Assembly: GCA_030823955.1 (NCBI GenBank) | Contig: JAVBYO010000014.1 | Location: forward strand, 1 to 64,000 | Reading direction: 5' to 3' | DNA: 64,000 nt | From: Gallionellaceae bacterium | GTDB taxonomy: Bacteria > Pseudomonadota > Gammaproteobacteria > Burkholderiales > Gallionellaceae | Shown here: positions 32,901-46,808 of the stretch, piece after piece | Numbering within the stretch: the stretch's first letter is position 1 | Layout of the letters: each line of letters opens with the position of its first letter | The notes under the pieces: generated by a model | Database searches by the model: none | Told to the model about the DNA's origin: nothing | Seen by the model: the letters and a program-made list of their open reading frames with translations, nothing else | Position numbers and translations under genes: made by a program

Positions 32901-32916
32901 AGGCACGGAATTTGCT
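32901..32916 (+). promoter_or_regulatory. Sigma-54 promoter (-24/-12) upstream of the Nif11-domain gene
   Basis: AGGCACG-GAAT-TTGCT matches the sigma-54 consensus TGGCACG-N4-TTGCW at all but the first position, with GG (32902-32903) and GC (32914-32915) exactly 10 bases apart. The predicted start of transcription is near 32927. It nearly duplicates the nifB promoter at 40791, so both may respond to NifA. No perfect TGT-N10-ACA site was found in the 230 bases upstream; TGTCGCGGCGCACACC at 32770 is one base off. Confidence 0.82.
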
Positions 32917-32922
32917 GCCAGA

Positions 32923-32968
32923 TGTCCCGAGGTCGAAAAATGACGTTTCGACCGACAATATCGGGACA
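32923..32968. promoter_or_regulatory. Nested palindrome at the predicted 5' end of the Nif11 mRNA
   Basis: TGTCCCGA (32923-32930) pairs with TCGGGACA (32961-32968), and directly inside it GGTCGAAA (32931-32938) pairs with TTTCGACC (32946-32953), with a 7-base loop and a 7-base bulge. In RNA it would form a stable stem within the first bases of the sigma-54 transcript. Another GGGACA half lies at 33006-33011 next to the start codon, so an operator for a DNA-binding protein is the alternative. Confidence 0.7.
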
Positions 32969-33014
32969 AATACGCTCCCGATGTTTCGTTTACTCCAACA
33001 TTCACGGGACATAT

Positions 33015-33233
33015 ATGGCCATCAAAAACATCAAGGCATTCGCTGACAAAGCAAAAATCGACGCCGAATTAAAAGAAAAGCTGCTCGCCTGCCAGAAGGT
33101 GCGTGAATTACTCACGTTGGCAAAAGACAGCGGCTTCGACTTCATCGAAGACGAAATGTATCCGCCCAACGAACCGCAATTCACCGCCGACCAGCTTTCC
33201 GAAAGACTAGGCAAAGCCCTGTTGCGCGCCTGA
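33015..33233 (+). CDS. Nif11-domain small protein
   Basis: A 72-residue protein whose N-terminal 45 residues fit the Nif11 pattern (IKAFADKAKIDAELKEKLLACQ ... LLTLAKDSGFDFIEDEM). Nif11 domains were first noticed in nif clusters and also occur as leader regions of ribosomally made peptides. The tail (YPPNEPQFTADQLSERLGKALLRA) has no Gly-Gly cleavage site and no Cys/Ser-rich core, so a modified-peptide precursor is unlikely. The ATG at 33015 starts the domain cleanly. It heads a tight set of small genes behind a sigma-54 promoter. Confidence 0.78.
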   Translation: MAIKNIKAFADKAKIDAELKEKLLACQKVRELLTLAKDSGFDFIEDEMYPPNEPQFTADQLSERLGKALLRA

Positions 33234-33238
33234 CAGCG

Positions 33239-33547
33239 ATGGGTACCACGAGCAACGAGGACCGGGGCACGCTCCGGTTCTTTGTCACCTACACCGGCAT
33301 CAAGCTGCCGCTCAAGCTAATCAACGAATTACAGCCTGACGAGGTCGAGAATCGCAACACCTTCTTTCGCGGCTATTTCGACGGGCAAGACCGCCTTACC
33401 AGCTTCGACAAACTCGCCTATGGCGAGGTCGAACTGAGGCACGACTACACCTATCACGACAACGGCAAGATACGCGCGGCGGAGATCACCGACATCGACG
33501 GCGAAGTGACCATGTTGCTGTTTAGTGCCGAGGGTGAAGCGGTTTGA
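33239..33547 (+). CDS. Small conserved protein, resembles DUF6156
   Basis: A 102-residue acidic, aromatic-rich protein (FFVTYTGIKLPLKLINEL, NTFFRGYFDGQDRL, AYGEVELRHDYTYHDNGKIRAAEI). The pattern recalls a small family (DUF6156) that I associate with nif regions; the match is from memory of the sequence style and is not certain. It starts five bases after the Nif11 gene and overlaps the next start, so it belongs to the same operon. Function unknown. Confidence 0.6.
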   Translation: MGTTSNEDRGTLRFFVTYTGIKLPLKLINELQPDEVENRNTFFRGYFDGQDRLTSFDKLAYGEVELRHDYTYHDNGKIRAAEITDIDGEVTMLLFSAEGEAV

Positions 33548-33768
33548 GCAGTTTCGTTCCCTGCAAAGGCAAAACGGCCTGCCGCGATGACGGCAGGCAT
33601 TGCCTGACCTGCGGGCGCAGTCTTGCCGAGATCGAGCAAACACGAAAACTGATCGACGCTTTGGCCGAGCTCGTCTGTGAGCGCGGCTACGACAACGTGA
33701 GCGAATTTTCCGCGTATGTTGCAGACAAAGTGGAGAAGAAGGTCGGACACCGGCGTGCGTCGGTGTAG
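33544..33768 (+). CDS. Small four-cysteine protein (DUF1289-like)
   Basis: A 74-residue protein with an N-terminal cysteine set C-x4-C-x6-C-x2-C (PCKGKTACRDDGRHCLTCGRSLAEI) similar to DUF1289 proteins, then a helical tail. The start is a TTG overlapping the previous stop (TTGA). The cysteines could bind zinc or an Fe-S cluster. Function unknown; operon with the Nif11 gene. Confidence 0.6.
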   Translation: MSSFVPCKGKTACRDDGRHCLTCGRSLAEIEQTRKLIDALAELVCERGYDNVSEFSAYVADKVEKKVGHRRASV

Positions 33769-33822: not shown

Positions 33823-34197
33823 ATGTCCAAACACACCACCCCCGATCATGCCCGCCTCGACCGCGTTGTGGCCGAGGCCAGACAGCAACGCGAATCACGC
33901 GAGGCCGGTTACCGCGAGCGCGCGCTCAAATTATTTCCGTGGATATGCGGTCGCTGTGGTCGTGAATTCGCCGGCGTGAGATTGCGCGAACTCACCGTCC
34001 ACCACAAAGACCACAACCACGACAACAATCCGCCGGATGGCAGCAACTGGGAGTTGCTGTGCCTGTATTGCCACGATAACGAACACTCGCGTGAGATGGA
34101 CGAGGCCGTGCGCAAGCGCGGCGCGGAGAGTCAGGCGGTGGCGACGCACAATCCTTTTGCCGACCTGAAGTCGTTGCTCAAGAAAAAATCGGATTGA
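33823..34197 (+). CDS. HNH nuclease, YajD family
   Basis: A 124-residue protein with CGRCGREF, the HNH core LTVHHKDHNHDNNPPDGSNWELLCLYCHDNEH and an upstream helical region, as in E. coli YajD. HNH domains cut or nick nucleic acid using a metal ion; YajD's role is unknown. It lies 54 bases after the four-cysteine gene on the same strand and may belong to that operon. Confidence 0.85.
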   Translation: MSKHTTPDHARLDRVVAEARQQRESREAGYRERALKLFPWICGRCGREFAGVRLRELTVHHKDHNHDNNPPDGSNWELLCLYCHDNEHSREMDEAVRKRGAESQAVATHNPFADLKSLLKKKSD

Positions 34198-37322: not shown

Positions 37323-38042
37323 ATGAACAAACAGATCAGCACGCCCCCACCCGTCGCCCCCACCCATAGCGATCAGGACAATCATCTCTGGTTGCAATGT
37401 TGGCGCGAGCAGGACACCGATTTCCATCAAACCGAGGTCAACCCTTTGCTGAGCCGTTTTTGGCCGGGGCTGGGATTGGCGCGGGGCAGCCGTGTGTTCG
37501 TACCGCTTTGCGGCAAAAGTTTGGACATGCTCTGGTTGGCCGGACAGGGCCACGAGGTCATCGGTATCGAGCTGAGTCCCGTTGCAGTACACGATTTCTT
37601 TCACGACAATGGGCTACAGCCGGACAAAAGTCAGGTCGGGCCATTCACGTTATGGCGACACGGCAATCTGAGTATCTTGTGCGGAGACTATTTCGCGCTG
37701 GACAAAAGCCATCTCGGGCCGTTCGACACTGTCTATGACCGCGCCGCCCTGACCGCTTTGCCGGAGAACATCCGCACGTTGTATGTGGCCCAATTGGAGC
37801 GCCTCGTACCGAAAGCCGCCACGGTGTTTTTGCTGACCACGGAAGATGCGATAGAAGGCGCGACTTTGGCGCAGGCCGTCGGTGTAGACACGGAGATCGC
37901 CGGGCTGTATTCGGCGGGATTCGAGATCGACCTTGCTTATGTGGAAAGTGTGTTCGAGCCGGACCCGCAAGCGAGCGGAACGGTACGTCGCGTCGAATTC
38001 AAGGTCTATCGCTTGTCCGGCAAGGCCAAGCCGCCAGGCTAG
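37323..38042 (+). CDS. tpm: Thiopurine S-methyltransferase (TPMT family)
   Basis: A 239-residue SAM-dependent methyltransferase: NHLWLQCWREQDTDFHQTEVNPLLSRF, RVFVPLCGKSLDMLWLAGQGHEVIGIELS and FDTVYDRAALTALP are TPMT signatures. Bacterial TPMTs methylate tellurite, selenite and thiopurine-like compounds. It ends in a four-base overlap with the convergent cyclic-nucleotide-binding gene. Confidence 0.9.
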   Translation: MNKQISTPPPVAPTHSDQDNHLWLQCWREQDTDFHQTEVNPLLSRFWPGLGLARGSRVFVPLCGKSLDMLWLAGQGHEVIGIELSPVAVHDFFHDNGLQPDKSQVGPFTLWRHGNLSILCGDYFALDKSHLGPFDTVYDRAALTALPENIRTLYVAQLERLVPKAATVFLLTTEDAIEGATLAQAVGVDTEIAGLYSAGFEIDLAYVESVFEPDPQASGTVRRVEFKVYRLSGKAKPPG

Positions 38043-40790: not shown

Positions 40791-40806
40791 GGGCACGCAG
40801 TTTGCT
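40791..40806 (+). promoter_or_regulatory. nifB: Sigma-54 promoter of the nifB operon
   Basis: GGGCACG-CAGT-TTGCT matches TGGCACG-N4-TTGCW at all but the first base; GG (40792-40793) and GC (40804-40805) are 10 bases apart. Transcription should begin near 40817. Confidence 0.9.
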
Positions 40807-40841: not shown

Positions 40842-42347
40842 GTGCAACTACCCGTCATCAACAACACAGCAAGTGAAGCATCCCAAGGTGGCTGCTCCGC
40901 CGGATCGTGCGGCTCGACCGACGATCAGATGAACCACCTGCCGGAACATATCCGCCAGAAGGTGTTCAACCATCCCTGCTATTCCGAAGAGGCCCACCAT
41001 TACTTTGCGCGTATGCACGTTGCCGTGGCTCCGGCTTGCAACATCCAGTGCAACTACTGCAACCGCAAATACGATTGTGCCAACGAATCGCGCCCCGGCG
41101 TGGTGTCCGAATTGCACCATCCGGTGCAGGCGGTGAAGAAGGTGCTGGCTGTTGCGGCGACCATCCCGCAGATGACGGTGCTGGGTATCGCCGGCCCCGG
41201 TGATCCTTTGGCTAACCCGGAGCGCACTTTCGAGACGTTCCGCATGTTGTCCGAGCAAGCGCCGGACATCAAGCTGTGTGTCTCGACCAACGGCCTGTCG
41301 CTGCCCGAACAGGTGGAAGAGTTGTCCAAGTACAACATCGACCACGTGACCATCACCATCAACTGCGTCGATCCCGACGTGGGCGCGCAAATCTATCCGT
41401 GGATATTCTGGAAGAACAAGCGCATCAAGGGACGCGAAGCGGCCGAGATACTCATCGCGCAACAACAGAAGGGTCTGGAGATGCTGGTGGCTAAAGGCAT
41501 CCTGGTGAAGGTGAACTCGGTGATGATCCCCGGCGTGAACGACAAACATCTGGAAGAAGTATCCAAGATCGTCAAGGCCAAGGGTGCTTTCCTGCACAAC
41601 GTGATGCCGCTGATCTCGGAAGCCGAGCACGGCACGTTCTACGGTCTCACCGGCCAGCGCGGCCCGACCAACGAAGAGCTGCAAGCTCTTCAGGACGCGT
41701 GCGAGGGCGACATGAATATGATGCGCCATTGCCGCCAGTGCCGCGCCGATGCGGTCGGTCTGCTCGGCGAAGATAGAGGTTCTGAGTTCACTATGGACAA
41801 GGTCGAACAGATGGAGATCAACTATCCCGAGGCGATGAAGATGCGCGCCGAGGTGCATGCGGCCATCAACGAAGAACTGGAGAGCAAGCGCCTCGCCAAG
41901 GAATCCAAGGTGCAGTTGGTCAGCATACAGGGCGTGCAGAAGAAAGAAGTGACGCGTCCGGTGCTGATGGCAGTTGCCACCAAGGGCGGCGGTGTGATCA
42001 ACGAACACTTCGGCCATGCCGGTGAGTTCCTGATCTACGAAGCCTCATCCGAGGGTGTGCGTTTCATCGGCCACCGCAAGACCACCCCGTATTGCGAAGG
42101 CGGCGATACCTGTGGCGACGGCGAGAGCGCGCTGGATAAAACACTGAAAGTGCTGGCCGGATGCGAAGCCGTGCTGTGCAGCAAAGTCGGCTACGAACCC
42201 TGGGGGCCGCTGGAGGCGGCGGGCATCCAGCCCAACGGCGAGCATGCGATGGAGCCTATTGAGGAGGCGGTGCTCAAGGTTTATGAAGAGATGCGTGTCG
42301 CGGGCAAGCTGGCAGTGAAGGTTGTGGAGCAACAGAAGGTAGCCTGA
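40842..42347 (+). CDS. nifB: Nitrogenase cofactor biosynthesis protein NifB
   Basis: A radical-SAM enzyme that inserts carbide and fuses clusters to make NifB-co, the core of FeMo-co. The 501-residue protein has CNIQCNYC (C-x3-C-x2-C) near residue 67, further cysteines (NRKYDC; CRQC), and a C-terminal NifX-like domain (VLMAVATKGGGVINEHFGHAGEFLIYE). The start is a GTG with GGAGG eight bases upstream (40829-40833). It heads the nif operon behind two NifA sites and a sigma-54 promoter. Confidence 0.97.
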   Translation: MQLPVINNTASEASQGGCSAGSCGSTDDQMNHLPEHIRQKVFNHPCYSEEAHHYFARMHVAVAPACNIQCNYCNRKYDCANESRPGVVSELHHPVQAVKKVLAVAATIPQMTVLGIAGPGDPLANPERTFETFRMLSEQAPDIKLCVSTNGLSLPEQVEELSKYNIDHVTITINCVDPDVGAQIYPWIFWKNKRIKGREAAEILIAQQQKGLEMLVAKGILVKVNSVMIPGVNDKHLEEVSKIVKAKGAFLHNVMPLISEAEHGTFYGLTGQRGPTNEELQALQDACEGDMNMMRHCRQCRADAVGLLGEDRGSEFTMDKVEQMEINYPEAMKMRAEVHAAINEELESKRLAKESKVQLVSIQGVQKKEVTRPVLMAVATKGGGVINEHFGHAGEFLIYEASSEGVRFIGHRKTTPYCEGGDTCGDGESALDKTLKVLAGCEAVLCSKVGYEPWGPLEAAGIQPNGEHAMEPIEEAVLKVYEEMRVAGKLAVKVVEQQKVA

Positions 42348-42354
42348 AAACCAT

Positions 42355-42431
42355 TTCACCACAGAGACACCGAGGCACAGAGAAAACCTGTTTGCATTAT
42401 CTCTGTGCCCCCTCTGCGTCTCGGTGGTGAA
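42355..42431. repeat. Repeat C, copy 1 (ACCACAGAGACAC-type inverted repeat)
   Basis: TTCACCACAGAGACACCGAG and its imperfect complement ending GTCTCGGTGGTGAA flank a short loop, between nifB and the ferredoxin gene. It would fold in the nif mRNA and could affect transcript stability. A disrupted copy lies at 29424-29594. Confidence 0.82.
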
Positions 42432-42464
42432 TGAATTAACTTGTGGAATGAGAGGGGCGAATAA

Positions 42465-42719
42465 ATGGCACTCGAAATCATCGAATCTTGCACCAATTGT
42501 TGGGCCTGCCAACCGCTGTGCCCGAGCAAGGCGATCTACGAAGCGAAGCCGCATTTCATGATCGACGCCCAAAAATGCACCGAATGCGCGGGCGATTTTG
42601 AAGATCCGCAGTGCGCGACCATTTGCCCCATCGAGGGCGCAATCCTGAATGAAGACGGTGTGCCGCTGAATCCGCCCGGTTCGCTTACCGGCATCCCGCT
42701 GCAAAAGCTGGCGGCATAA
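42465..42719 (+). CDS. fdxN: 4Fe-4S ferredoxin, nif-associated (FdxN-like)
   Basis: An 84-residue protein with two cysteine groups, CTNCWACQPLCPSKAI and CTECAGDFEDPQCATICPIEGAI, as in the bacterial 2[4Fe-4S] ferredoxins encoded next to nifB. Such FdxN proteins supply electrons for NifB action or for nitrogenase. The spacing in the second group is longer than in clostridial ferredoxin, usual for this subgroup. Eleven bases to the next gene. Confidence 0.85.
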   Translation: MALEIIESCTNCWACQPLCPSKAIYEAKPHFMIDAQKCTECAGDFEDPQCATICPIEGAILNEDGVPLNPPGSLTGIPLQKLAA

Positions 42720-42730
42720 GGAGCTCAATC

Positions 42731-43159
42731 ATGGCGACCGTCATCTTTTACGAGAAGCCCGGCTGCGGCAACAACACCAAACAAAAGGTGTGGTTGGCTG
42801 CATCCGGCCATACCGTATTGGCGAAGAATCTGCTCACGGAGAAATGGAGCACGGAACGGCTGCGCGCGTTCTTCGGCGATCTGCCGGTGGCAAAGTGGTT
42901 CAATCCCGCCGCGCCCAAGGTCAAATCCGGCGAGATCGATCCGTCCGCATTCGATGACCGGGCCGCACTCGACCTGATGCTGGCTGAACCGTTGCTGATC
43001 CGCCGTCCGTTGATGGAGGTGGAAGGTGTGTTGCGCGTCGGTTTTGATGCCAAGGCGGTGGATGCGTGGATAGGGCTGAACGACTCGCAGCCGAAAGAAG
43101 AGCCTTGCCCGATCTGCCACCGTTCCGAGCCGTGCCCGACACCGGAAGTCGTCACATGA
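42731..43159 (+). CDS. nifO: NifO-like nitrogenase-associated protein (ArsC/Spx fold)
   Basis: A 142-residue thioredoxin-fold protein with FYEKPGCGNNTKQK at the N-terminus and RPLMEVEGVLRVGFD in the ArsC-type arm. It matches the ArsC-like proteins of nif clusters (NifO), linked to molybdenum or nitrate effects in Azotobacter. A cysteine-rich tail (PCPICHRSEPCP) may bind metal. It overlaps the flavodiiron gene by four bases. Confidence 0.8.
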   Translation: MATVIFYEKPGCGNNTKQKVWLAASGHTVLAKNLLTEKWSTERLRAFFGDLPVAKWFNPAAPKVKSGEIDPSAFDDRAALDLMLAEPLLIRRPLMEVEGVLRVGFDAKAVDAWIGLNDSQPKEEPCPICHRSEPCPTPEVVT

Positions 43160-44427
43160 AATCCGCGCCGGATGCCGTCGAGATCGCACCCGGCACGCAT
43201 TGGATCGGCGCGCTCGATCCCGGCTTGCGCGAATTCGACATCATCCTCAAGACAGCCAACGGCACCACCTACAATTCTTACTGTGTGCGCGGCAGCAGCG
43301 GTGTGGCCATCATCGACACGGTGAAACTGTCGCATGCCGGCGAATTCTTCGCCCGACTCGAACAGGTCGCGCGTTACGACGAGATCAGCACCATCGTGCT
43401 GAACCATCTGGAGCCGGATCACAGCGGTGCGTTACCCGAGCTGATGCGCCGGGCGCCGCAAGCCAAGTTGTATATCTCCACCAAAGCGCAGTTGATGCTG
43501 AAGGCGCTGGTGAAAGATACCGAACTTGATTACACCGTGGTACAGACGGGTGATACCGTGGATCTGGGTGAGCGCACGCTACACTTTTTCAGTACGCCGT
43601 TCCTGCATTGGCCGGACACGCAATGCACTTTGGTCGAGGAGCAGGGCATCCTGTTCAGCGGCGATGTGTTCGGCTGCCATTTCTGCGATGCGCGACTGTT
43701 CAACGATCAGGTGGGTGATTTCCGCTTCTCGTTTGAATACTACTACCAGCACATCATGCGTCCGTTCCGCGAGCATGTGCTGGAAGCACTCGAATTGCTT
43801 GAACCACTCGCGCTGAAACTCATCGCGCCAGCGCACGGCCCCATCCTGCGTGATGTGCCGCAAAGCTACGTGCAGCGTTACCGTCAGCTCGCATCGCCGC
43901 TGTTGGCCAACGAAGTGGGTGCTGACAACAAGTCGTTGCTGGTGTTCTACATCTCGTCTTATGGCAATACCGCACGGATGGCGCAAGCGGTCGCGGAAGG
44001 CGCCGAGACGGTGTCCGGCGTGCGCGTCTCGTTATATGACTTGCAGGCGATGGGTGATCTGCCTTTTGTTGATCTGATCGAGGAAGCCGACGGTATCGCC
44101 TTCGGTTCACCCACCATCAACGGTGATGCGGTGAAGCCGGTATGGGATCTGCTGTCGTCGCTGGTCGCCATCAAGGTGCGCGACAAGCTGGGTGCCGCTT
44201 TCGGTTCTTACGGGTGGAGCGGCGAAGCCATCAATATGATCGAAGACCGGCTACGCGGACTCAAGCTGCGCGTACCGATCAAGGGTGTGCGCGCAAGGCT
44301 GATTCCCACCGACGAGGAACTTGGCAAGTGCCACGATCTCGGCAAACAACTCGCCCAACACCTGACCGGCACCGTTGATCGCCGCGTCATTTCCATGTCT
44401 GAACTACTCGCTAGCAGCCATGTGTGA
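43156..44427 (+). CDS. Flavodiiron protein (FprA-type A flavoprotein)
   Basis: A 423-residue two-domain protein. The N-terminal metallo-beta-lactamase-like domain has the diiron ligands HLEPDHSG near residue 84, the GDVFGCHF Asp and the late APAHGPI His. The C-terminal flavodoxin domain begins at LLVFYISSYGNTARMAQAV (about 258). Such proteins reduce O2 to water or NO to N2O. Its place inside the nif operon suggests O2 removal around nitrogenase; no direct evidence. Confidence 0.92.
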   Translation: MKSAPDAVEIAPGTHWIGALDPGLREFDIILKTANGTTYNSYCVRGSSGVAIIDTVKLSHAGEFFARLEQVARYDEISTIVLNHLEPDHSGALPELMRRAPQAKLYISTKAQLMLKALVKDTELDYTVVQTGDTVDLGERTLHFFSTPFLHWPDTQCTLVEEQGILFSGDVFGCHFCDARLFNDQVGDFRFSFEYYYQHIMRPFREHVLEALELLEPLALKLIAPAHGPILRDVPQSYVQRYRQLASPLLANEVGADNKSLLVFYISSYGNTARMAQAVAEGAETVSGVRVSLYDLQAMGDLPFVDLIEEADGIAFGSPTINGDAVKPVWDLLSSLVAIKVRDKLGAAFGSYGWSGEAINMIEDRLRGLKLRVPIKGVRARLIPTDEELGKCHDLGKQLAQHLTGTVDRRVISMSELLASSHV

Positions 44428-44463
44428 AATTATAAAAAATTCGGGATTCAGCATGTCTGCTTT

Positions 44464-44530
44464 CCCTCACCCCAACCCTCTCCCGAGTGATGCCCCTCTC
44501 TCTAACTCTCTCCCGCAAGCGGGAGAAAGG
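44464..44530. repeat. CCCTCTCCC-type repeat within the nif cluster
   Basis: CCCTCACCCCAACCCTCTCCC, then the hairpin CTCTCCCGC-AAG-CGGGAGA, of the same type as at 40457. It lies in the 185-base gap between the flavodiiron and ferredoxin genes, which contains no other signal I can read. Confidence 0.7.
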
Positions 44531-44540
44531 ACGAACGTGA

Positions 44541-44897
<357 letters not shown>

Positions 44898-44972
44898 CCA
44901 ACAGCCCGTACGATGGGGCGGGCGCAGGAATACCCATCGATTTATCAACTCTAAACAACAGGAGCAATCGCA

Positions 44973-45332
44973 ATGCCTAACATCACTTTTTCCAGCCCGT
45001 TACACAAAGACAAGACCGTTTATGCCGTGGCCGGTAGCCATACCATGACCGTGTTGAAACTGGCCAAGGACAACCACATCCCCATCGATTTCGGCTGCGA
45101 GAACGGCGAGTGTTCAACTTGTCTGGTAAAAGTCACCAACCTCACCAACAAAGGTCCGATGGCAGGTCCGCTTACCGACCGCGAGATCAATGTGTTGAAG
45201 CAGGAAAACAAGATCACTGCGGCGCAGATCGAGGCGATGAAAGTAAACGACGTGATCACCACCGAATGGCGTCTGGCTTGCCAGATGGTGTTGCGCGACG
45301 AAGATCTGCTGATCGAATATCCCAGCAAGTAA
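44973..45332 (+). CDS. Shethna FeSII-type 2Fe-2S protein (nitrogenase protection)
   Basis: A 119-residue 2Fe-2S protein with CENGECSTC and RLACQ. Beyond the cluster it follows the Azotobacter FeSII (Shethna II) pattern: ITFSSPL at the start, YAVAG, CLVKVTNL, a long insert (GPLTDREINVLK) and a DEDLLIEY end. FeSII binds both nitrogenase components under oxygen stress and locks them in an inactive, protected complex. Its presence in the nifB operon supports that job. Confidence 0.82.
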   Translation: MPNITFSSPLHKDKTVYAVAGSHTMTVLKLAKDNHIPIDFGCENGECSTCLVKVTNLTNKGPMAGPLTDREINVLKQENKITAAQIEAMKVNDVITTEWRLACQMVLRDEDLLIEYPSK

Positions 45333-45355
45333 ACATCACCGTGCGTACCGGAACC

Positions 45356-45922
45356 ATGCAGAAACAGAGATCACCGGTGCAGCCGCAGGGGCTGTATGGG
45401 GAGTTGATGGCACATGCGGCCGGTTCGCCGAACGACGAGCTGTTCGCGCAGATGATCGCCAGCCAGATCGACGGCATCGGCGCGTTGCCACCGGGTCTCG
45501 GCCTGGCGGAGCAGGATTTCTCCGCCTTGCTGGCGCGGCACTTTCCCGGTGCCGAGCTGGTCATTCGCAATGCGGGACAGACGGAAGATCCGCGCGCACT
45601 GGAGCGGGACGATGTGCTCGCGCTACTGATTGAACATCGTGCTTACCGGGATAGTTCGGAGGCGTGGATGGCAGAGATCGTCACCGCGGCCTGTATGGCC
45701 AGCGACCATCTGTGGCAGGACCTCGGTCTGCGCTCGCGCGACTATCTCGGCAAGCTGATGACGCAGAACTTTCCCTCGCTGGCCGCGAAGAACGTGCATG
45801 ACATGAAGTGGAAGAAGTTCATCTACAAACAGTTGTGCGAGAAAGAAGGCATCAACGCCTGTCGTGCGCCGACGTGTGAATACTGTGCCGATTATCTGAA
45901 TTGTTTCGGCCCCGAAGAATAA
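45356..45922 (+). CDS. nifQ: NifQ, molybdenum donor for nitrogenase cofactor
   Basis: NifQ carries an Mo-Fe-S cluster to the FeMo-co assembly machinery. The C-terminal C-x4-C-x2-C-x5-C (CRAPTCEYCADYLNC) is the family signature, and DLGLRSRDYLGKLMTQNFPSLAAKNVHDMKWKKFIYK is typical NifQ. The start is either ATG 45356 or GTG 45341; the second would be nine bases from the FeSII stop. Confidence 0.93.
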   Translation: MQKQRSPVQPQGLYGELMAHAAGSPNDELFAQMIASQIDGIGALPPGLGLAEQDFSALLARHFPGAELVIRNAGQTEDPRALERDDVLALLIEHRAYRDSSEAWMAEIVTAACMASDHLWQDLGLRSRDYLGKLMTQNFPSLAAKNVHDMKWKKFIYKQLCEKEGINACRAPTCEYCADYLNCFGPEE

Positions 45923-45929
45923 GCGGCCC

Positions 45930-46808
45930 ATGCCTGTTACCGACCATGCCATCGCAGCCTATCTGGGATTAGCCATCGGTGATGCGCTGGGCTCCACGGT
46001 GGAGTTCATGACGCCGCGCGAGATCAAGGCGCAATACGGCCTTCACGACAAGCTCGTCGGCGGCGGGTGGCTGCATCTCAAGCCGGGACAGGTCACCGAT
46101 GACACCACCATGTCGCTCGCGCTGGGTGAGGCTATCCTCGCGCTGGGTGACGTGGATGCACTGGCGGCAGCGCGGGCCTTCGATGCCTGGATGCGCGCCA
46201 AGCCGGTGGACATCGGCAACACGGTGCGGCGCAACTTGTTGCAGTTCCGCAAGACCGGCCATCCGGAAGCCGCCTACTCCGACCACGACGCGGGCAATGG
46301 TGCGGCGATGCGTGTGTTGCCCGTGGCGCTGGCCACCTTCGGCCAGGCGGAAGCGGAGGTGCGTGCCGCATGCCGGGCACAGGCGCATGTCACCCACCAT
46401 TGCGCACTCTCCGATGCCGCATGTGAATGTCTGGTGTTCATGGTGCAGGATGCGATGCGGGGCGCGGACAAGAATTATTTGTTGCATAACCATGCGCATC
46501 CGCTTGCCGCCCGTCATCCTGAATTCAGGTTCCGTGCAGTAAAGCAGCAGAGCAATCCCAGCGGTTATGTTGCCGACACGCTGCAAGCCGTGTTCCAGAG
46601 TTTCTTCGATACCGATGATTTTCGCGATTGCCTGGTCGATGTGGTCAATCGCGGCGGCGATGCCGATACTACCGGGGCGATTGCCGGGATGTTGGCGGGT
46701 GCCTTATACGGGATGCGGGAGATTCCGGCGGAGTGGCTGAAGGATTTGGATGCACAGACAAGAGACCAGTGTGAGGCACAGGCGCGCAGTCTGTTTTCCG
46801 CTCACTAG
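45930..46808 (+). CDS. draG: ADP-ribosyl-[dinitrogen reductase] hydrolase DraG
   Basis: DraG removes ADP-ribose from NifH and so reactivates nitrogenase after ammonium or darkness switch-off. The 292-residue protein has the metal-binding motifs GDALGSTVEFM, TDDTTMSLAL and the C-terminal NRGGDADTTGAIAG. It follows nifQ by seven bases. The matching transferase gene draT is not in the window. Its end overlaps the convergent PAS gene by four bases. Confidence 0.92.
   Translation: MPVTDHAIAAYLGLAIGDALGSTVEFMTPREIKAQYGLHDKLVGGGWLHLKPGQVTDDTTMSLALGEAILALGDVDALAAARAFDAWMRAKPVDIGNTVRRNLLQFRKTGHPEAAYSDHDAGNGAAMRVLPVALATFGQAEAEVRAACRAQAHVTHHCALSDAACECLVFMVQDAMRGADKNYLLHNHAHPLAARHPEFRFRAVKQQSNPSGYVADTLQAVFQSFFDTDDFRDCLVDVVNRGGDADTTGAIAGMLAGALYGMREIPAEWLKDLDAQTRDQCEAQARSLFSAH

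Follow-up and report, generated by a model that had tools for sequence, protein, structure and literature searches.

Three small genes in the window (the whole stretch of DNA analysed here, 64,000 nucleotides long) are best explained as an accessory operon for nitrogen fixation that is transcribed with sigma-54, in which two genes probably derived from the nifL-nifA operon tail stand behind a nif11 gene, under a promoter and a folded mRNA leader of their own, and whose products may have a joint tuning role. The probability of this reading as a whole is put at about 0.6. That the genes form an operon, that the operon is linked to nif and that it has a leader are well supported. The gene order, the position of the promoter, the co-occurrence with nif, the conservation of the leader and the missing upstream NifA site are established at the level of sequence comparison. 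The conserved structured leader and the probable descent from the nifLA tail were both missed by the initial annotation of this DNA.

The three genes and their link to nitrogen fixation

All features of the locus lie on the forward strand. A sigma-54 -24/-12 promoter element, AGGCACGGAATTTGCT (32901-32916), recognised by pattern match and kept in relatives, precedes the structured leader (32923-33014) at the 5' end of the nif11 mRNA. A likely ribosome-binding site, CGGGAC (33002-33007), is kept as GRGAC before the nif11 start. The stand-alone Nif11-domain gene (33015-33233, 72 aa, orthologues 76-88% identical) is followed after a gap of 5 bases by the DUF6156 gene (33239-33547, 102 aa), whose stop is overlapped (TTGA) by the TTG start of the third gene, cys4 (33544-33768, 74 aa). 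The gap and the overlap in the window's open reading frames, like the presence of a gene with four cysteines in third place, are as the initial annotation had described them. A terminator-like hairpin with a TTTT tail (33747-33766) lies at the end of cys4. An HNH gene (33823-34197) was considered as a fourth member and rejected, being beyond the terminator and, in many relatives, not adjoining the unit. In the source genome the operon lies behind rlmL, away from nifLA.

The domain assignments proposed for the first two genes hold against curated models. The Nif11 protein matches PF07862 with 54.3 bits (cut-off 23.8, E 1.6e-14) over residues 1-47, in a single copy, and its best NCBIfam match is TIGR03798, leader_Nif11 (38.8 bits, cut-off 32.3). 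At its C-terminus, conserved across 17 orthologues, a YPPNEPQFTADQLSE stretch that never varies leads into a short tail of helix-like character; there is no variable core peptide, in agreement with the initial annotation. The second protein matches PF19653 with 127.1 bits (cut-off 27, E 3e-37), in line with its alignment, and is modelled as a 7-stranded beta-sheet (pLDDT 83.6). The Foldseek matches of this model to beta-sheets of OspA, teneurin and RHS proteins have E values of at least 0.02 and were set aside as generic beta-meander likeness. In cys4 the alignment shows four invariant cysteines, spaced C-x5-C-x6-C-x2-C, and the structure model is a helical hairpin (pLDDT 92.4), for which Foldseek returned no structural neighbour in the PDB. 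Sequence profiles found no solved relatives of either DUF6156 or cys4, and no mention of DUF6156 was found in the literature outside subscription papers.

The initial annotation had suggested that the gene set be checked for co-occurrence with nitrogen fixation, and the outcome was the opposite of the refuting case that it had named, a gene set present mainly in non-diazotrophs. Among 100 genomes of the window's GTDB family, in which the named relatives are Gallionella, Sideroxydans and Sideroxyarcus MAGs, 29 carry DUF6156, and 24 of those 29 also have Nif11. All 29 have a nif match and fall within the 44 genomes recognised by the nifD model, a model that picks up nifE as well (Fisher p = 2e-14), and in a class set of 369 genomes the carriers (8/8) are all among the 32 nif genomes (p = 1e-9); both p-values ignore shared ancestry. 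Loci taken from the genome search and loci taken from genome contigs partly represent the same genomes, so that counts from these two collections are not additive. In these sets the genes are found with nitrogenase genes only, and they are linked to nifLA and nifB. The gene cys4 follows DUF6156 in 16 of the 29 family loci and is absent in the other 13. NifL is present in 29/29 family genomes with DUF6156 and in 6/8 class carriers. Because two class genomes have DUF6156 with no recognised NifL, NifL is unlikely to be an obligatory partner, and because nine NifL-bearing family genomes have no DUF6156, DUF6156 is dispensable.

The source genome itself carries nifB inside the window; its nifLA genes are some 38 kb off, at C19:71062-74155, and a nifE-type match is also present, but nifD was not found in the assembly, which is about 85% complete. 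Neither Nif11 nor DUF6156 had a match in plasmid records. The nif accessory region of the window (40842-46808) contains nifB with two upstream NifA sites, genes for a 4Fe-4S ferredoxin, an ArsC-like protein and two 2Fe-2S ferredoxins, and a draG-like gene for an ADP-ribosylglycohydrolase.

Gene order in relatives and the nifL-nifA operon

The nifL and nifA genes are a textbook regulatory pair. In other betaproteobacteria, DUF6156 and cys4 come third and fourth, after nifL and nifA. They follow nifA directly in nine named loci (Thiobacillus, Hydrogenophilales and other betaproteobacterial MAGs), overlapping the nifA stop in four (L095, L096, L098 and L099) and lying 55-370 bases behind nifA in L080, L083, L087, L092 and L097. 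Curated models identify the upstream genes of L099 as NifL and NifA, and that of L097 as NifA. In the Gallionellaceae, nif11 and a promoter of its own are placed ahead of the two genes. This nif11 stands after nifA in, for example, L075, L079 and L112; in L030, L084 and the window the unit instead comes after rlmL. By these orders, DUF6156 and cys4 are related to the genes that end the nifL-nifA operon on its 3' side and are probably descended from them; the same orders suggest that the direction was from the nifLA tail to a separate operon and not the reverse.

Locus L112 (G048:C10) has the order nifL-nifA-nif11-nifB and the leader, with neither DUF6156 nor cys4; therefore nif11 can occur without these two genes. 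In gammaproteobacteria, cys4 relatives are found in the nif region near draT and nifD, and in L122 they come after draT and a gene of SIR2-like type. Across the gammaproteobacterial diazotrophs L120-L123 they adjoin nif genes that are draT, SIR2-like or ArsC-like; one neighbour of similar appearance recurs in 4/4 of these loci and is SIR2-like by Pfam in L122. A thiopurine S-methyltransferase-like gene directly follows DUF6156/cys4 in L014, L019, L021, L075, L076 and L092 among the relatives, and the window has a copy at 37323-38042.

The literature on genes downstream of nifA and on Nif11 in nif clusters, subscription papers aside, yielded nothing on the unit. Two conserved small genes right behind nifL-nifA in many betaproteobacteria appear to be without a described role, and an accessory part of nitrogen fixation in iron-oxidising Gallionella-type bacteria is apparently unreported.

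Promoter, activator and leader

The box AGGCACGGAATTTGCT has one mismatch to the sigma-54 consensus TGGCACGNNNNTTGCW, as had been claimed, and resembles the nifB box GGGCACGCAGTTTGCT at 40791. The match alone is weak: the window contains 14 boxes with no more than two mismatches against 16.8 expected. The exact core occurs 7 times in the whole genome against 2 for a reversed-pattern control. The box is considered real because its distance to nif11 is conserved. With up to two mismatches to the pattern allowed in relatives, a box lies 110-118 bases upstream of the nif11 start in 21 of 23 aligned nif11 loci, with GG at -24 and GC at -12 kept at fixed spacing. Sequence conservation among relatives begins at the box and extends downstream only, the DNA upstream of it being unconserved. 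The transcript start is predicted near 32927, about 12 bases past the -12 element.

The initial annotation had proposed a NifA-regulon unit of three small proteins. The sigma-54 promoter and the nif linkage stand, but the usual NifA site was not found. Membership of the NifA regulon was judged by a TGT-N10-ACA site about 70-200 bp before the box, and no such site occurs upstream of the nif11-operon box in any of 22 loci, either within 250 bp or within 800 bp, where about 3 of 22 loci would be expected to have one by chance. The same site is present at 13/13 nifL promoters checked and at five other sigma-54 sites of the source genome, nifB included. Alternative spacings (8-12) or likeness to the upstream activator site of nifL gave no clear excess. 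A NifA site downstream of the box, at 33220 (TGTTGCGCGCCTGACA), has a counterpart at that position in only one other locus (L014) and was taken as chance. Judged by these patterns, the promoter is of the sigma-54 type and is without a conventional upstream NifA site, and it may be activated by NifA without such a site, by another activator, or from a site inside the leader. Further sigma-54 boxes with an upstream NifA site in the source genome include L001 (G000:C7:84703) and L006 (G000:C22:4958); the latter lies ahead of a gene resembling one for an outer-membrane porin, which would be unusual as a candidate target of NifA.

The leader, about 90 bases from the box to the nif11 start, is conserved across relatives and is predicted to form two covarying hairpins, together with an unpaired stretch, TTGTTTCRTTTACTCC, that hardly varies. 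Built on the sequences of 20 relatives, a covariance model scores 80.9 bits on the source locus (32923-33018), and a search with it finds one copy per genome, only before this operon; in L023 and L081, which have no nif11, a weaker copy stands directly before DUF6156. In hairpins 1 and 2 together, 28 cells carry a change in both partners, where shuffles give 12.4, and the covariation is 0.317 against 0.218 in shuffles (0/500 as high) and at most 0.137 with partners slid. Kinship among the sequences, however, inflates the control by shuffling, and in alignment A2 the sequences had been fitted to the model. The support from covariation for a conserved structured RNA is therefore strong but not final. 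Given the predicted transcript start, the mRNA would open with hairpin 1 at its extreme 5' end. An Rfam cmscan of nine loci, up to E 1, matched no family at the leader; a WsnRNA46 match in L027, which scored under the gathering threshold and lay on the other strand, was discarded. A third helix proposed by RNAalifold, pairing GUUUC with the GRGAC ribosome-binding site, was likewise rejected: it is conserved, with no covariation and a mean pairing probability of 0.12.

Mechanism, alternatives and known systems

Under the proposed explanation, transcription would rise during nitrogen fixation, driven by NifA or by a different sigma-54 activator that works without the conventional site upstream; the leader would set mRNA stability or translation. 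The three small proteins might then jointly tune NifL-NifA signalling or nitrogenase, with DUF6156 as a putative beta-sheet binding protein and cys4 as a putative metal- or redox-binding helical hairpin; these protein functions are argued from genomic context. A more specific proposal sees in the leader a cis-regulatory RNA new to nitrogen fixation, a covarying two-hairpin element with sigma-54-dependent initiation whose conserved single-stranded segment serves as a sensor or sRNA-binding site, controlling a three-protein NifL-NifA/nitrogenase tuning module from a promoter without the usual NifA enhancer. It is offered tentatively, as rather less probable than not. A structured leader on such a promoter, if true, would add RNA-level control to nif regulation. 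Like the two small genes behind nifL-nifA, it could be relevant to moving nif systems into new hosts.

One competitor is an ordinary NifA-regulon operon, whose promoter NifA activates directly, the way it does at nifB, from a weak or remote upstream site, with the leader acting solely as an mRNA-stabilising sequence. The nif linkage and the consensus sigma-54 box agree with it, as does the same promoter class at nifB, 8 kb off; the contrast between 0/22 loci with TGT-N10-ACA within 800 bp and 13/13 nifL promoters speaks against it, however, as does the lack of conservation upstream of the box, and it is considered a serious possibility with the odds somewhat against it. The missing upstream site, the conservation that runs only downstream from the box and the near-invariance of TTGTTTCRTTTACTCC would also be expected if a sigma-54 activator bound within the leader DNA as a downstream enhancer, the leader then being conserved as DNA and not as RNA. 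Yet the arms of both hairpins change jointly with pairing retained, a pattern easier to reconcile with RNA than with a fixed sequence bound by a protein, and a role as DNA is judged unlikely.

Two further alternatives concern the proteins. Since gammaproteobacterial cys4 follows draT and a SIR2-like gene near nifD, and the window has a draG-like gene (45930-46808), cys4 could act in the reversible ADP-ribosylation of nitrogenase reductase by DraT-DraG and not with NifL-NifA, the operon then serving a post-translational switch-off; betaproteobacterial cys4, however, follows nifA and not draT, and there is perhaps one chance in several that this is its role. It is very improbable that Nif11 is the leader peptide of a RiPP precursor, with unrelated genes as neighbours. 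The TIGR03798 match above cut-off would suit such a peptide, but the tail shows no variation at the place where the core of a RiPP should be variable, no modifying or maturation enzyme or peptidase-transporter was recognised among the open reading frames around nif11, and nif11 shows nif linkage and shares one unit with DUF6156 and cys4. On these features, the protein is a stand-alone Nif11 protein and not a RiPP precursor.

Compared with known systems, the source protein shares its one Nif11 domain with Nif11-domain proteins and Nif11-like RiPP precursors; it differs in its invariant tail, in having no core peptide and in its nif linkage. DUF1289 resembles cys4 in its four-cysteine spacing and the E-I motif that follows, but PF06945 scores 15.9 bits on cys4, under the cut-off of 27, and its weak matches to 7 of 17 cys4 members reach at most 18.2 bits, also below the cut-off; the two differ further by a longer C-terminal helix pair. 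In passages of the published account (PMC13207237), the Nif11 gene BRADOA9_v1_p0609 of Bradyrhizobium sp. DOA9 has a sigma-54 box, TGGCACGCTCCTTGC, and is expressed at a lower level in rpoN mutants. It may serve as an indirect precedent for a sigma-54-driven nif11, likened by description; its box is at -76, and those passages report no DUF6156/cys4 context. A further comparison is with the nifLA operon of proteobacteria (NifL TIGR02938, NifA TIGR01817). Its nifL promoters have the upstream NifA site that the nif11-operon promoter lacks, and in the source genome DUF6156-cys4 stand apart from nifLA in their own operon with nif11; yet a sigma-54 box precedes nifL as it precedes nif11, and DUF6156-cys4 come after betaproteobacterial nifA, in some loci overlapping it.
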